From positions 1 through 46,084 of the forward strand of contig JAKSPC010000012.1 in NCBI GenBank assembly GCA_024405155.1: 46,084 nt of DNA, read 5' to 3'. This document shows positions 34,880 to 39,383 of the stretch, in pieces. This stretch comes from Lachnospiraceae bacterium. GTDB taxonomy: Bacteria > Bacillota > Clostridia > Lachnospirales > Lachnospiraceae. The notes below the pieces were generated by a model. It was not told the origin of the DNA. It did no database searches and saw only the letters and a list, made by a program, of their open reading frames with translations. Made by a program: the position numbers and the translations under genes. How positions within the stretch are numbered: the first letter of the stretch is position 1; each line of letters opens with the position of its first letter.

Positions 34880-35521
34880 TTATTTCGCAAAGCGGATGGA
34901 ATTCATCACGTACAGGATATCGTCCTTGTGAACGGGATCGGTAAACACGTATACCAGGCATCCCATTCCTCTGGTCCCGTCTTTGGTGAAGACAAATTCC
35001 ACGTGATGGGTCTTTCTGTTCACGTCCGTATACTCGCTTGTGTAATAATCGAATTCCGTGTAGTTTCTGTTGTGCTTCACGGCAGAAGGGAAACCGGATC
35101 CGGCCACAATGCCGCTTACTTTTTCTCCGGGAAGAATGTTCTGCACGATCGCCATTTCGACCGCTGCCGTATTCTTTCCGTCATCTTTGTAGAGAAGATA
35201 CTTTTCGTTTTCAAAATAAAACACGTACAGCTGTTCCGCCGCGGTCTGATACGTTTCCGGGATCTCGTTCAGTTTATACTGATAACCGGCGGTGCCGTCA
35301 AGCTTTGTCTCCACGGCAGAAAACGTCTTCGGGATCCTGTAAGACATAAAGCCGCCGGGGACCGTCACTTCTTTTACCAGCGCATCCGTATAAGCCGTGC
35401 CGGAACCAGAGCCGATATCCAGGACCACTTTGCCGTAGTCAAGAAGGCTTCCGCCAAAAGAAGACAGCCACATCACGGCGACCAGAAGGAGCGCCGCATT
35501 TTTTTTCAGAATGCTCCTCAT
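34880..35521 (-). CDS. Exported protein of unknown function
   Basis: 213 residues with an N-terminal signal/anchor (KKNAALLLVAVMWLSSFGGS) and an extracytoplasmic domain. A central VPGGFMSYRIPKTFSAVETK segment and a C-terminal VYVFTDPVHKDDILYVMNSI recall small beta-rich secreted domains that assess membrane or protein state, but no family is recognised. Its start overlaps the stop of the preceding ExbD-like gene (ATGA), and the GT-C-like start follows at once, so it is co-translated with the ExbD-like proteins and is probably a partner outside the membrane. Confidence 0.65.
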   Translation of the reverse strand: MRSILKKNAALLLVAVMWLSSFGGSLLDYGKVVLDIGSGSGTAYTDALVKEVTVPGGFMSYRIPKTFSAVETKLDGTAGYQYKLNEIPETYQTAAEQLYVFYFENEKYLLYKDDGKNTAAVEMAIVQNILPGEKVSGIVAGSGFPSAVKHNRNYTEFDYYTSEYTDVNRKTHHVEFVFTKDGTRGMGCLVYVFTDPVHKDDILYVMNSIRFAK

Positions 35522-35991
35522 GGCTTCCTCTCCTCCTCCGGCGTGATGCCTTCTTCTCTCAGGACTTTGTATACTTCCGTGTACGTCTTCCAGGAAGCGT
35601 AATCATCCACCAGCCTTGCATGGACGTTGTTCCGGTATTCCAGTGCCAGACGGACCTTCAGAGCATTTAAGTCCTTCATCGGTTCTCCGTTTACAAAGAT
35701 CCGGTCATCCTGTACGGTCACGGTCAGTTCCTTTTCCGGTTCCTTCTGTGCTTTTCCGGCCCCGTCGCCTTCCAGAGTGCCGTCCTTTTCTTCGGCTTCT
35801 CCTTCCATGGACGCCTCCGCGTTCCAGCCTTTTCCGGGAGCGGAATCACGGACCATCGCGCCCAGATCGATGAGCTTTATGCTTGGGCTCTTCAGCTTTG
35901 CCGGTTTCGTCAGCGGATTAAAGCCGCACAGCAAAAATGCGCACACCGTGCACAACAGAAATATCATCAGTTTCCGGAGTTTGTTTTTCAT
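35518..35991 (-). CDS. Membrane-anchored protein with ExbD-like outer domain (third ExbD relative)
   Basis: 157 residues. One N-terminal membrane segment (about residues 8-24) lacks the Asp of true ExbD. A Lys/Glu/Gly-rich linker follows, then a C-terminal domain with LTVTVQDDRIFVNGEPM and ARLVDDYASWKTYTEVYKVL. This matches the beta-strand plus DxxxxY..V..V.R..G pattern of the ExbD/TolR periplasmic domain. The gene at 35988 has the same domain. Start 35991 overlaps the upstream stop; a longer frame to 36054 overlaps more and lacks a signal. Role inferred as an accessory to the channel. Confidence 0.6.
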   Translation of the reverse strand: MKNKLRKLMIFLLCTVCAFLLCGFNPLTKPAKLKSPSIKLIDLGAMVRDSAPGKGWNAEASMEGEAEEKDGTLEGDGAGKAQKEPEKELTVTVQDDRIFVNGEPMKDLNALKVRLALEYRNNVHARLVDDYASWKTYTEVYKVLREEGITPEEERKP

Positions 35992-36512
35992 TCCAGTGTT
36001 TTCTCCGAATACCGGATCCCCCGTTCGTCGAGGATCCTCTTCACCTCTTTCCATGTTCTGGAAAGCGCATAATCATCTTCCAGACGGACGTTCCGTCCGG
36101 TCAGTTCCTTTTTCAGGCTGTCTGCCGCTTCCTTAAGGTCTTCAGGTCCGGAAAGCTGTGCACTGCCAAGCCATATGTCCGTCCCGTTCACCCGGATCAC
36201 CACCGTGCCGGAATCCCCCAGGGCTCCATTCAGGAATGCCGCAGCTTCCGCTTCTGCGGGCGCGCTCATTTCCTGGTCTCCCTTTTCGTCCCCGGTCACG
36301 TCTTCTGACAGGATCGAGTCTGCTCCTTTGGGGCCGAACAGTCCGATCCCCACGAACACAAGGACTCCCGCCAGCACGAGGACGGCCAGCAGGTATCCCC
36401 AGACGGGCATTCGGGAAAGATCCGCCTTTACTCTGGGAACGATCACCAGCAAAAGAAGCACCAGAAGGATGAGGCAGACGACGCCTATGACGATCAATGC
36501 TGTCTTGCTCAT
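35988..36512 (-). CDS. Two-helix membrane protein with ExbD-like outer domain (second ExbD relative)
   Basis: 174 residues: two membrane segments (about 4-26 and 38-60), a charged linker, then an ExbD-like domain with VVIRVNGTDIWLGSAQLSG and NVRLEDDYALSRTWKEVKRI ending in LDERGI. The strand-then-VRLEDDYAL-then-V..IL..RGI pattern is that of ExbD/TolR C-terminal domains. Neither membrane helix holds the proton-relay Asp. It overlaps the true ExbD-like gene by 4 nt at its start and the third relative by 4 nt at its end. Likely a structural or regulatory paralog; untested. Confidence 0.6.
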   Translation of the reverse strand: MSKTALIVIGVVCLILLVLLLLVIVPRVKADLSRMPVWGYLLAVLVLAGVLVFVGIGLFGPKGADSILSEDVTGDEKGDQEMSAPAEAEAAAFLNGALGDSGTVVIRVNGTDIWLGSAQLSGPEDLKEAADSLKKELTGRNVRLEDDYALSRTWKEVKRILDERGIRYSEKTLE

Positions 36513-37096
36513 TTTTCTGCCGACTTTCTGTAGAAAAGATTTCCGTGTCTGCCGTAAACGGCGGAAAGGACCTCTTCGGCACGCAGTTCATCACGGTACA
36601 GGATCCTTGTCATATCGATACTGATCACCACGGGCTTATCCGAAGCTTCTGCCTGTGTCACCAGATCCTCCAGCTTTTCCTCAAACTTCGTGTAGGCATC
36701 ATTCTCCGTTTCCGGTGTGATGGTGATCGTTTCCGGCGCATCCGCGTCCGCCATAAGGCGTATGGTGCGCGTCCGGAGGTTGGAGGGCTGATAATCGATG
36801 ATCACCGTTACCGTTGTCATCTGCGATGAGACATCCTCGAATTTTTCCCGATGCTCCTCGAAAAGCGCCTTTTCCGCTTCCGCCTCCGCCCGCAGGTCTT
36901 CTGCTTCCGAAAGCGCGGCCTCAGCTTCCGCCGTCAGCAATGCGGCCTCCTCATAGGCAGCCTCCACGTCATGTCCCTTTTCTTCCAGATTGATCTGCTG
37001 GTTGCAGATAACGATCATCAGCACGATAAAGATCACGTCCAGAAGGGACGTCAGCTCCACCACCGTATTCAGTTTGTTCTTCAATCTGTGTTTCAT
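36509..37096 (-). CDS. ExbD/TolR-like proton-channel subunit
   Basis: 195 residues. A short cytoplasmic N-terminus is followed by one membrane helix, TSLLDVIFIVLMIVICNQQI, with Asp in the LLDVIFI position that carries the proton relay in ExbD/TolR/MotB. A long coiled segment follows (residues about 48-85, rich in Ala, Glu and Leu, longer than in usual ExbD), then an outer domain with VTVIIDYQPSNLRTR and VVISIDMTRILYRDELRAEE. It would pair with the ExbB-like protein encoded 11 nt upstream. It is unusual because no TonB, Tol or outer-membrane gene is present and the organism appears Gram-positive. Confidence 0.72.
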   Translation of the reverse strand: MKHRLKNKLNTVVELTSLLDVIFIVLMIVICNQQINLEEKGHDVEAAYEEAALLTAEAEAALSEAEDLRAEAEAEKALFEEHREKFEDVSSQMTTVTVIIDYQPSNLRTRTIRLMADADAPETITITPETENDAYTKFEEKLEDLVTQAEASDKPVVISIDMTRILYRDELRAEEVLSAVYGRHGNLFYRKSAEK

Positions 37097-37107
37097 CCGG
37101 TGAACCC

Positions 37108-37653
37108 TTACGCTTCCTCTTCCGAATCGCGGATGGATACCGCGTCCTGATACTTGATGTCGTAATCGTTAAAGATGGTCTCGATGTCATTGATCTTTCT
37201 CTGTACCAGAAGCGCTTCCACGAATTTCAGGACAATGACTGCCACCAGGCCCCAGAAGGTGGTGGAAAGAGCCGTATCCAGAGAAGCATAGATCTGTGAG
37301 GCATCCTGCGCGTTTACCTGGGCAATAAGACCTGCCACGGTACCCAGGATCCCCAGAAGCGGAAATACGGGGATCAGCTGAGCCACTGCCAGGTATTTTG
37401 CACAGATCTCGTCAAATGTCTTCCGGAGAGGATACGTATCCTCTCTCTTCGCAATGGCGGTCTCCCGCTGCTTTAGGTCCAGAGTCTTCTGATTGCGGTA
37501 AACTCTGCCCCGGTTTCCCTGCAGCTGCTCCGCTGTCTTGTCACGGAGTTCGGTAAGCTGCCTGGAAACATACACCAGATAGATAAGCACGCCGGCACCC
37601 AGGACCGCAATGATCGGGTTAATGGCTTTTCCGATGATATCAAAAAGATTCAT
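37108..37653 (-). CDS. MotA/TolQ/ExbB-like proton-channel subunit
   Basis: A 181-residue protein with three membrane segments: residues about 12-30, 90-113 (LIPVFPLLGILGTVAGLI) and 128-150 (ALSTTFWGLVAVIVLKFVEA). GILGTVxGL and ALxTTxxGLxxAI are the hallmark motifs of the ExbB/TolQ/MotA family. The large cytoplasmic loop between helix 1 and 2 is present. It would form the pentameric channel that takes up protons and drives the ExbD dimer. It starts immediately after the AIM24 stop, so the two are translated together. Confidence 0.8.
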   Translation of the reverse strand: MNLFDIIGKAINPIIAVLGAGVLIYLVYVSRQLTELRDKTAEQLQGNRGRVYRNQKTLDLKQRETAIAKREDTYPLRKTFDEICAKYLAVAQLIPVFPLLGILGTVAGLIAQVNAQDASQIYASLDTALSTTFWGLVAVIVLKFVEALLVQRKINDIETIFNDYDIKYQDAVSIRDSEEEA

Positions 37654-38451
37654 TTACTTTTCCTCCTTCGGCACGGAGATGCCTCTGTTTGCGGCAACGG
37701 GCGCCACCAGTACCCTTCCCGTTCCGCGGTATACGTTCACCAGCCCTTCCTTTGACGCTGCCGAACCGATCAGCGTGGGGGCCGTTCTTTCCACGGTAAA
37801 GCTCAGACTTCCGGACCAGCAGACAGCCTGATTCCCGTCGATCTTCAGCTCATCATTTTCCAGTTCCATCACGAACAGTTCGTCTCTGGGAACGCTGCTT
37901 TCCAGCACCACGGTACCCTCTCCGAACAGCACGGTGTTAAAAAGCCCTTCCTTGCCGAACAGTGCGGAAGATACGTTTTTCCGTGCGCAGACCTTCATTT
38001 CAATGGAATCGTCACAGCCAAGGAACATGCCGTCCTGGATCACCAGGCCGTCCGGCCATGCTGCCATGTCTTCCAGCAGGATATACTGAAAGGTAGGCTC
38101 CAGCACCACAGATCCGTTTCCGATATAATGAGGCTTCAGCACGGTCTCACCGGTAACGGCGCTTCCTACGGCTTTTTTCATCAGATCCCCCACGCCTTTG
38201 ACGCCCGTCACCATGTCCACCTGCCCCAGCATCATCTGTATGGCACCTGCCTGAATGATCACACCGTGGTCATCATCCAGATCCGCCAGCACCTGACGCT
38301 TGCGCACATTCATGCTGGAGGCGAACCAGGCTGTCTGCGCCGAATGCGGCGTAACGGAAAGATCCTTTTCATATTCGATCACGGAAAAACGCCCCAGCCG
38401 CTCCGTTACGGAACGGGAACCGACGGTCTCCGCAATATTTGTCCTTATCAT
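37654..38451 (-). CDS. AIM24 family protein
   Basis: A 265-residue beta-rich protein of the AIM24/TIGR00266 family, whose name comes from mitochondrial Aim24. Diagnostic segments are YEKDLSVTPHSAQTAWFASS near residue 28, VIIQAGAIQMMLGQVDM, and LVIQDGMFLGCDDSIEMKV near 130. Such proteins form trimeric beta-folded structures and have been tied to membrane organisation, but their bacterial role is unclear. It is the first gene of the ExbB/ExbD operon and starts from a region shared with the divergent ion-channel gene. Confidence 0.85.
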   Translation of the reverse strand: MIRTNIAETVGSRSVTERLGRFSVIEYEKDLSVTPHSAQTAWFASSMNVRKRQVLADLDDDHGVIIQAGAIQMMLGQVDMVTGVKGVGDLMKKAVGSAVTGETVLKPHYIGNGSVVLEPTFQYILLEDMAAWPDGLVIQDGMFLGCDDSIEMKVCARKNVSSALFGKEGLFNTVLFGEGTVVLESSVPRDELFVMELENDELKIDGNQAVCWSGSLSFTVERTAPTLIGSAASKEGLVNVYRGTGRVLVAPVAANRGISVPKEEK

Positions 38452-38512
38452 GAAGAAAGTCTCCTCTCCCGCATCATAATATCATGAAAATTGTAACATA
38501 CCCCAGAAAGAA

Positions 38513-38542
38513 ATACCACAAAAAACGGGGGTGTGGTATAAT
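38513..38542 (+). promoter_or_regulatory. Extended -10 promoter with inverted repeat, ion-channel gene
   Basis: TGG then a perfect TATAAT (38537-38542) forms an extended -10 about 32 nt before the start codon. ATACCACA (38513-38520) and TGTGGTAT (38532-38539) form an 8-bp inverted repeat with 11-nt spacing that overlaps the -10 and the -35 position. This is a typical operator layout. On the opposite strand TGTTACAAT (about 38489-38497) could serve the AIM24 operon. Confidence 0.55.
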
Positions 38543-38573
38543 CATTTCATTCAGAAGAAAGGAGCGCCGCGTC

Positions 38574-39383
38574 ATGTCAGAGATACCCGTGGATCCCAAT
38601 GTGCCTGCATGGAAAAATTTCAGAAAAAGGATCTTTGAGATCATAGAGCTGGCGAAAGATAACGATAAAGCCAGTGCCGTCTATGACTGGTTCATGATGA
38701 TCACTATTGTGGCAAGCCTCATTCCGCTGGCCTTCACAGAAGAGTATCCCGTTTTCGCTGTCATCAACAACGTGACCGCCGGTATCTTCATCATCGACTA
38801 TGTGATGCGGTTTCTGACGGCGGATCTCAAACTGAAAAAAGGGAACCTGTCTTTCCTGCTCTACCCCTTTACTCCCATGGCACTCATAGACATGATCTGC
38901 ATCCTGTCCGCTCTGCCTGCCGTAAGCGAGGCTCTGAGAGTTCTGAAAGTCCTCAGGCTGCTCCGCACGTTCCGTGTATTCAAAGCGCTGCGGTATTCTG
39001 CGTCGGTAGCTCTTTTCGTAAGGATCTTCAAAGCCGAAAAAGAGGCACTCGGCATGGTGGCAGGCATTGCCATCCTGTATATTCTGGTGTTTGCGCTGAT
39101 CATGCTGAATCTGGAGCCGGAAACGTTCGGAAACTATCTGAATGCGGTCTACTGGATGACGATCACTCTGACCACCATCGGATACGGTGACCTCGCCCCC
39201 GTCACGGCCGTCGGCAAAGTCATTACCATTCTCACGTCATTCATGGGAGTGGCAATCGTGGCCATGCCCACCGGCATCATTGCCTCCGGCCTCCTGCGGG
39301 AAGTGGGAAGACGTACGGATGACGATCCCACCAACGACGATGAGCCCTACGAGAAAGACAAGGATCGTTTCAACAACGTGTAA
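38574..39383 (+). CDS. Voltage-gated potassium channel-like ion transporter
   Basis: A 269-residue six-helix channel subunit. S4 is seen at residues 121-141 (LRVLKVLRLLRTFRVFKALR), with positive charges at every third position. The selectivity filter TTIGYGD lies near 200-206, then a last pore helix. This is the KvAP/Kch type and should be K+-selective and voltage-sensitive. The ATG at 38574 has AAAGGAG before it; frames starting earlier overlap the promoter. Its last 14 nt overlap the convergent phosphopantetheinyl transferase gene. Confidence 0.92.
   Translation: MSEIPVDPNVPAWKNFRKRIFEIIELAKDNDKASAVYDWFMMITIVASLIPLAFTEEYPVFAVINNVTAGIFIIDYVMRFLTADLKLKKGNLSFLLYPFTPMALIDMICILSALPAVSEALRVLKVLRLLRTFRVFKALRYSASVALFVRIFKAEKEALGMVAGIAILYILVFALIMLNLEPETFGNYLNAVYWMTITLTTIGYGDLAPVTAVGKVITILTSFMGVAIVAMPTGIIASGLLREVGRRTDDDPTNDDEPYEKDKDRFNNV

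Follow-up and report, generated by a model that had tools for sequence, protein, structure and literature searches.

Outer-membrane bacteria are the known users of ExbBD motors. The window analysed here, a contig of 46,084 nucleotides from a Lachnospiraceae bacterium (JAKSPC010000012.1, assembly GCA_024405155.1), holds genes resembling such a motor, and the question arises what they could do in a cell with a single membrane. A 2025 survey describes Ton parts in monoderms as "likely non-functional" (PMC12204202). The review PMC9389320 regards it as still to be tested whether Ton orthologs function in Gram-positive bacteria without ExbD, and in what way. The operon of the window, which is under selection, combines an ExbB with an Asp-bearing ExbD and with partners of its own; several families of the order have a sister unit of simpler composition. 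Through this operon the role of an ExbBD-type motor without outer membrane becomes a directly testable question.

The operon is located on the minus strand (38451-34880) and encodes AIM24, an ExbB-like protein, an ExbD-like protein, E3, E4 and E5, in this order. All six genes, proposed at this place in an earlier note on the same DNA, were confirmed. Three overlaps of 4 nt (36509-36512, 35988-35991 and 35518-35521) join ExbD, E3, E4 and E5, as the note had described for four of the genes. ExbB and ExbD are separated by 11 nt; AIM24 and ExbB, as well as E5 and the following gene for a GT-C-like membrane protein, abut with zero overlap. For E4 the ATG start at 35991, which creates the 4-nt overlap, is most likely used and not the longest-ORF start at 36054. 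The host had been called apparently Gram-positive, which fits its genome: at 93% completeness, neither Omp85 (BamA, PF01103) nor the TonB C-terminal domain (PF03544) gave a match in it. With the same two profiles, matches were obtained in 7 and 3 of 14 control genomes, respectively. Two PF01618 proteins were detected in the host genome, the ExbB-like protein of the operon and one ZorA-like protein.

The ExbB-like channel protein (181 aa, 37108-37653, minus strand) matches PF01618 (MotA_ExbB) with E 1.4e-8 and 35 bits, above the curated cut-off of 22.9. In an alignment with E. coli ExbB, the pore-type residues G101, G104, T105, A128, T132 and G135 are common to both proteins. The Glu in the third helix of E. 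coli ExbB (IAEALLAT) is replaced by Thr, Val, Ile or Gly in eight aligned relatives, thus the ion coupling may differ. The ExbD-like protein (195 aa, 36509-37096, minus strand) consists of a single N-terminal helix, which bears the channel Asp (D20 in LTSLLDV), and a long outer part; such an Asp helix is a feature of the ExbD-type partners in the motor superfamily. The Asp was invariant in all 34 aligned sequences, taken from 34 of the 37 mapped loci (L071, L077 and L079 were omitted). The invariant Asp and the pore Thr are direct observations. Taken singly, the window protein stays below the cut-off of PF02472 (E 0.011, 16.2 vs 25.4 bits), and 31 of 34 scanned relatives match this family at E ≤ 1, the best at 3.3e-7. 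A comparison of the operon ExbD with the canonical ExbD profile gave 89.7%, confined to 38 helix columns. Against sequences of solved structures, the ExbD profile found a designed protein first (1.2e-4), followed by TolR chains as the best natural proteins (E 0.005-0.009) and by ExbD (0.011-0.97). A search of viral contigs with this profile returned 13 stretches with the pattern and zero relatives.

The Asp-helix protein itself was not found to carry an ExbD/TolR outer domain, and a hidden domain is possible; the match was found in other proteins, E3, E4 and D1. E3 (174 aa, 35988-36512, minus strand) combines two hydrophobic helices with a C-terminal domain of ExbD type. Its helices are devoid of acidic residues in 16/16 sequences, and the channel Asp is absent. 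E4 (157 aa, 35518-35991, minus strand) starts with a hydrophobic signal or anchor, followed by a linker and an ExbD-type C-terminal domain. D1 is the corresponding protein of a smaller unit described below. The C-terminal domains of E3, E4 and D1 match one another at 98.9-99.0% in profile comparison. The pooled domain matches the canonical ExbD/TolR outer domain with a probability of 88.7 and a score of 33.4; the reversed profile reached 14.9, and 60 column-shuffled decoys scored at most 12.7. As single profiles, E3 and E4 gave 13% and 29% against canonical ExbD. In Pfam scans no ExbD match was obtained for the window copies of E3 (the only E3 copy scanned) and E4. E4 reached NCBIfam ExbD_2 with E 0.17 only, and one of its 16 members matched PF02472, at E 0.97. 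With the E4 and D1 profiles, convincing relatives were absent among solved-structure sequences. On the level of profiles, a common domain of E3, E4 and D1 that is related to the ExbD outer domain was thus demonstrated. The outer part of the operon ExbD gave 1.1% against this domain, therefore a pairing of ExbD with E3 and E4 is unproven.

AIM24 (265 aa, 37654-38451, minus strand) clearly exceeds the curated cut-off of PF01987 (E 5.2e-37, 128 vs 25.7 bits) and fails that of TIGR00266 (46.2 vs 96.6 bits). Judged by score, it is a divergent subtype; 1pg6 and 1yox are its solved relatives. In 10 of the 16 mapped loci with E5, its gene precedes those of the motor. E5 (213 aa, 34880-35521, minus strand) is exported according to hydropathy and has a C-terminal domain conserved among its relatives. 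The Pfam scan assigned no family to the window E5, which is a short form; most relatives have additional sequence with an OB-like domain. The C-terminal domain reached a PsbP-like family in 1/16 members (E 0.051), and the E5 profile found no convincing relatives among solved-structure sequences. Altogether, the channel of ExbB/ExbD type with AIM24 and extra ExbD-domain proteins, as read in the earlier note, was borne out by the HMM matches and the profile comparison. For the ExbD domain itself, the profile comparison, a weaker test than a structure model, is favourable. From the three families proposed there for searching, PF01618 and PF01987 were found above cut-off; the window match to PF02472 stayed below.

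Is this arrangement kept in relatives? A scattered gene order had been named as an argument against the unit. The expanded unit ExbB-ExbD-E3-E4-E5 was found in the same order in 16/16 mapped loci with E5, a recurrence beyond chance. Of the 21 remaining mapped loci, 20 have a minimal unit, ExbB-ExbD-D1, with one gene for an ExbD-like domain; the third gene is missing in L074. The conserved gene order spans many genera, the minimal unit occurs in several families of the order, and two more loci were found outside the order. One scan gave 65 matching genomes, from which 28 with partial matches only (E 7e-9 to 1e-6; frames of 261-294 aa, regarded as MotA-sized) were dropped. Thus, 37 strong genomes were retained, and 23 of them were mapped. 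E5 was found at 13 places, of which 12 were read, all but the second in G159; G373 and L009 are one contig, judged by their length of 48,877, and were counted once. In a class-level scan, 5/391 genomes matched, including that of the host; two of the others are strong and two matched in MotA-sized frames.

The expanded unit was detected in 12/397 genomes of the family. Given this rarity, the unit cannot be a wall machine of general use. The distribution is patchy, with 3/25 genomes of the host's own genus carrying the operon, and the window copy is nearer to the copy of another genus than to that of the genus-mate G017. Signs of transfer are present. Purifying selection was observed in all six genes (pN 0.07-0.44 vs pS 0.60-0.87). 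Synonymous sites are near saturation; hence, dN/dS was obtained for 3/18 comparisons only, with values of 0.09, 0.10 and 0.28.

Our preferred explanation, held tentatively and at slightly less than even chances, is that the operon encodes a single-membrane relative of the ion-driven ExbBD/TolQR motor, with the canonical-type outer domain on separate Asp-less proteins. In the cytoplasmic membrane, ExbB and ExbD would assemble, presumably with 5:2 stoichiometry, into a channel driven by ions. The outer domain of canonical ExbD type would have been relocated to membrane-anchored or exported proteins without channel Asp; the minimal unit has one of them (D1), the expanded unit two (E3 and E4). A membrane anchor, a linker and a small outer domain give these proteins a transducer-like look. 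Their most likely role would be to associate with the ExbD stalk outside the membrane and to substitute for TonB/TolA. Motion may be passed to the exported E5 and from there to the cell wall or the surface; on the cytoplasmic side, AIM24 probably has an accessory role. An envelope role of the operon is plausible. A more general proposal, which we regard as possible but rather doubtful, is that single-membrane bacteria own a lineage-restricted class of ExbBD-type motors with helix and outer domain split. An Asp-less chain (D1 or E3-E4-E5) would replace TonB/TolA in it and perform mechanical work, powered by ions, on peptidoglycan or the surface.

Compared with the Ton motor (ExbB-ExbD-TonB), the operon has in common a small ExbB-like protein with PF01618, an ExbD-like protein with Asp helix and an ExbD-type outer domain. 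It differs by the location of this domain on separate Asp-less proteins and by the extra AIM24 and E5, and the host genome has no TonB_C and Omp85 matches. Tol-Pal (TolQ-TolR-TolA) belongs to the same motor superfamily, with TolR as best natural match of the operon ExbD; in contrast, TolA, TolB and Pal are absent from the operon genes, and the Omp85 match is missing here, too. The MotA-MotB stator belongs to the channel superfamily as well. Identity of the ExbB-like protein with MotA was rejected, with NCBIfam MotP reached at E 6.8e-5 and 22.3 bits vs a cut-off of 373 bits, and a length of 181 aa vs about 260-290 aa for the frames of MotA-sized matches. In the Agl-Glt gliding motor of Myxococcus, each channel protein likewise has at least two ExbD/TolR-like partners, but there the TolR-like proteins themselves bear the channel helix, and the cells are surrounded by two membranes.

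A motor is not the only possible use of such a channel. ExbB and ExbD might be a gated ion channel or a sensor of the proton force, the ExbD-like domains and E5 a sensing or gating head and AIM24 the inside partner. The diverged outer part of ExbD, the replaced Glu of helix 3 and the presence of AIM24 agree with this, and macro-domain and vWA genes occur at two expanded loci; genes of these three kinds typically occur in neighbourhoods linked to stress or signalling. We consider such a non-mechanical device unlikely, since the invariant Asp and the common pore residues speak for ion-driven operation of the usual kind, and the anchor, linker and small outer domain resemble a transducer. Still less probable is an anti-phage system acting like Zorya, in which an ion-driven sensor triggers an effector. 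Zorya ZorA-ZorB belongs to the channel superfamily, too, and patchy spread and signs of transfer would suit defence. However, the defence role suggested in the earlier note found no support beyond a weak similarity to ZorA (E 2e-4 in the window, 2.2e-7 in L063), limited to the channel core. PADLOC named neither an OmpA-type ZorB nor a Zorya effector among the six operon and four downstream genes, and the host genome holds a separate, clear ZorA/ZorB pair. Around the loci read, no defence island was seen; the surroundings were mostly inspected by eye.

Rarity, patchiness and the closeness of the window copy to another genus would also be expected of vestigial or newly acquired Ton parts without function, as PMC12204202 proposes for monoderms. 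This reading is disfavoured and appears very improbable. The gene order is conserved across many genera, the reading frames are open with an invariant Asp, the amino acids of all six genes are strongly constrained, and the partner families are unknown from Ton systems. Conserved order, invariant Asp and selection thus argue against the non-functional label at this locus. We give the least credence to a motor that powers glycosylation or the export of a polymer through the GT-C membrane protein encoded next to it. In the window both abut on the same strand, and the GT-C protein resembles PMT_2 at E 7.7e-5, below the cut-off. But the GT-C neighbour was found in 1/39 loci; neither it nor the next protein (177 aa) was matched in the 38 other loci. 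As the gene is seen in the window only, it probably lies outside the unit; a GT-C partnership of the motor was rejected, and the glycosylation link drawn before is not supported. At the corresponding position, L008 and L009 hold what we take, by reading, to be a YczE-like protein and a mutarotase.

The operon comprises six genes on the minus strand. The AIM24 gene (38451-37654; Pfam AIM24, 5.2e-37) abuts the gene of the ExbB-like protein (37653-37108; MotA_ExbB, 1.4e-8), which is separated by 11 nt from that of the ExbD-like protein (37096-36509; Pfam score of 0.011, below the cut-off). Three overlaps of 4 nt join the ExbD gene, E3 (36512-35988), E4 (35991-35518) and E5 (35521-34880). E3 and E4 encode proteins with an ExbD-type outer domain and E5 an exported protein; none of the three was assigned to a Pfam family. 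Downstream of E5, a GT-C-like membrane protein (34879-32720; PMT_2, E = 7.7e-5, below the cut-off) and a probable lipoprotein of 177 aa (32723-32190) are encoded. The former had been linked to the operon in the earlier note. Neither protein was matched at E <= 1e-5 in any of 38 further loci, a number of which are short, and for want of counterparts there both genes probably do not belong to the operon. A voltage-gated-type ion channel gene (38484-39383, plus strand; PF00520, 4.9e-25) lies divergent from AIM24 and was likewise unmatched in all 38 of these loci.

An ExbBD-type ion-driven channel pair as the core of the operon is well supported. In ExbD, T16, L19 and the channel aspartate D20 were invariant in all 34 aligned rows (34 of 37 loci); an acidic residue within the helix was found by hydropathy scan in 34/34, and 31 of the 34 relatives matched PF02472 at E <= 1. 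The invariant residues of ExbB among seven relatives include F97, P98, L99, L100, G101, L103, G104, T105, L109, A128, L129, T132, G135 and K143, and G101, G104, T105, A128, T132 and G135 are also present in ExbB of E. coli. A glutamate in the third helix of the E. coli protein is replaced by Thr, Val, Ile or Gly in the relatives of the operon ExbB.

The additional proteins were examined together with D1, the single ExbD-like-domain protein of a minimal unit (ExbB-ExbD-D1). With a simple hydropathy scan, two hydrophobic stretches were found for E3 in 15 of 16 members, none with an acidic residue. E4 has a single N-terminal stretch in 14/16 and D1 a single stretch in 17/21; acidic residues occurred in its last four positions in four E4 members and in its last three positions in three D1 members. 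According to this pattern E3, E4 and D1 are without the channel Asp. Profile comparison identified one common C-terminal domain (E4-D1 99.0%, E3-D1 98.9%, E3-E4 99.0%). Matches to PF02472 were obtained for six of 21 D1 members (best 5.1e-5) and one of 16 E4 members (0.97). Against 14 canonical ExbD/TolR proteins, the single profiles reached 76% (D1), 29% (E4) and 13% (E3), and the pooled domain of 53 proteins 88.7% with a score of 33.4 over 67 collinear columns. As controls, 60 column-shuffled decoys reached at most 12.7 and the profile in reverse 14.9; scores of 10.0-15.2 were obtained for ExbB, E5 and the operon ExbD's outer part. The operon ExbD itself matched canonical ExbD with 89.7%, confined to 38 columns around the Asp helix. 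Since the pooled domain matches canonical ExbD and the operon ExbD does so only around this helix, the sequence profiles can be read as a division of the Asp helix and a canonical-type outer domain between genes. The Asp-less ExbD-domain proteins would then take over the movement outside the membrane and pass it to E5, through which it might reach the wall or surface. This mechanism as a whole, from the ion-driven core to the inferred relay, is regarded as tentative, somewhat short of an even chance; the replaced ExbB glutamate and the low single-profile matches of E3 and E4 weigh against it.

The host assembly has a size of 2.03 Mb in 46 contigs and is 93% complete. Within it no match to Omp85 or TonB_C was detected; identical searches were positive in 7/14 and 3/14 control genomes, respectively. 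The named loci closest to the operon belong to a Lachnospiraceae MAG and to the MAG Candidatus Darwinimomas equi, filed under Lachnospiraceae. From this kinship and the two negative searches, we infer a single-membrane host. Two PF01618 proteins are encoded in the genome, the operon ExbB and one on contig C24, which forms a ZorA/ZorB pair with its neighbour (around 2050-2295; PADLOC ZorA2 5.5e-21, ZorB1 2e-76). Ton systems of monoderms, including complete ones in Clostridia, are called likely non-functional in PMC12204202. No description of this operon was found among the matches listed on ExbB/ExbD in Gram-positives, Clostridia, monoderms and Lachnospiraceae, and no paper treating ExbD together with AIM24 in the literature searched, which excludes preprints and most subscription journals.

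ExbB was detected in five of 61 relatives, and reference genomes added two loci with 75 and 77% identity. The E5 profile was positive in 12/397 genomes of the family, spread over 10/334 genera. With the ExbB profile 65/295 genomes of the order were positive, 37 strongly (E <= 1e-20) and the other 28 with partial matches only, in MotA-sized frames. A scan of the class gave 5/391 positive genomes, including the own one, with strong matches in two of the others; the family is thus concentrated in this order. Within the own genus, 3/25 genomes, the own one counted, carry an ExbB of this kind, and one of them (G024) has the minimal unit.

Seven component profiles were used to map 37 loci, namely the window, L008-L013 and L057-L086. 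The order ExbB-ExbD-E3-E4-E5, the expanded unit, was kept in all 16 loci carrying E5. The mapped loci do not form an independent sample: E5 served to pick ten of them and ExbB most of the rest, and two pairs, L070/L071 and L061/L062, are closely related. AIM24 lies upstream of the motor genes in ten of the 16 loci with E5, with an acyltransferase gene in between in L009. At 20 of the 21 loci without E5, a D1-type gene comes after ExbB-ExbD; L082 carries two, the third gene of L077 scores best as E3, and L074 has no third gene. Beyond this order, the class contributed two further loci with the minimal unit.

Macro-domain and vWA genes abut the expanded unit downstream of E5 in L010 (3822-5830) and upstream of ExbB in L061 (1867-3592), which belong to different subgroups of expanded loci. 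This association, seen in 2/16 loci, is a lead and not a result. A macro gene also precedes the minimal unit in L011 (7210-8040). In L078 (1862-6505; genome G685) the genes ahead of the unit were assigned by eye to a MoxR-type ATPase, a DUF58-type protein and a large membrane protein; of these, the ATPase gene was matched in none of the 38 remaining loci.

E5 is short, with 213-242 aa, in the window and the three relatives nearest to it; the remaining 12 loci encode forms of 319-376 aa. The longer form has an OB-like domain ahead of the C-domain in at least six loci (PF12869, 6/16 members, best 3.7e-9). Genome G159 contains two E5 places of identical score (C37:17397-17987 and C63:7769-8359), perhaps a duplicated stretch.

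For AIM24, relatives of solved structure are 1pg6 and 1yox. Across 15 genomes carrying the expanded unit, nine motor-linked AIM24 proteins matched PF01987 at 4.6e-44 to 5.8e-36; seven of eight other copies matched at 8e-61 to 2e-75 and one at 3e-18. G404, G412 and G673 each possess one motor-linked and one other copy. Divergent AIM24 genes also occur apart from the motor, and neither ExbB nor other motor components were detected in five such stretches. Thus, AIM24 is an accessory partner and not an exclusive one. In L117 (2889-6140) a divergent AIM24 gene lies beside genes that are TerD-like by eye, in agreement with the frequent neighbourhood of AIM24 and TerD stated in PMC5822837.

In the ExbB tree (37 rows), rooted at the midpoint and with the long-branched L084 adjoining the expanded group, the 16 expanded loci lie on one side of a branch with support 93/81, recovered in 94% of 200 bootstrap trees. 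The expanded state requires one change versus a shuffle mean of 12.3. Two subgroups, six loci without and ten with AIM24, were supported by 90/89 and 94/93. The window ExbB clusters with L008 and L009, the latter from a different genus (G373, g350), and the copy of the genus-mate G017 is only 41% identical. This grouping and the low identity suggest transfer between genera. Among the window, L008 and L009 (six genes, 18 comparisons), synonymous sites approached saturation, with pS of 0.60-0.87, as against 0.07-0.44 for nonsynonymous differences.
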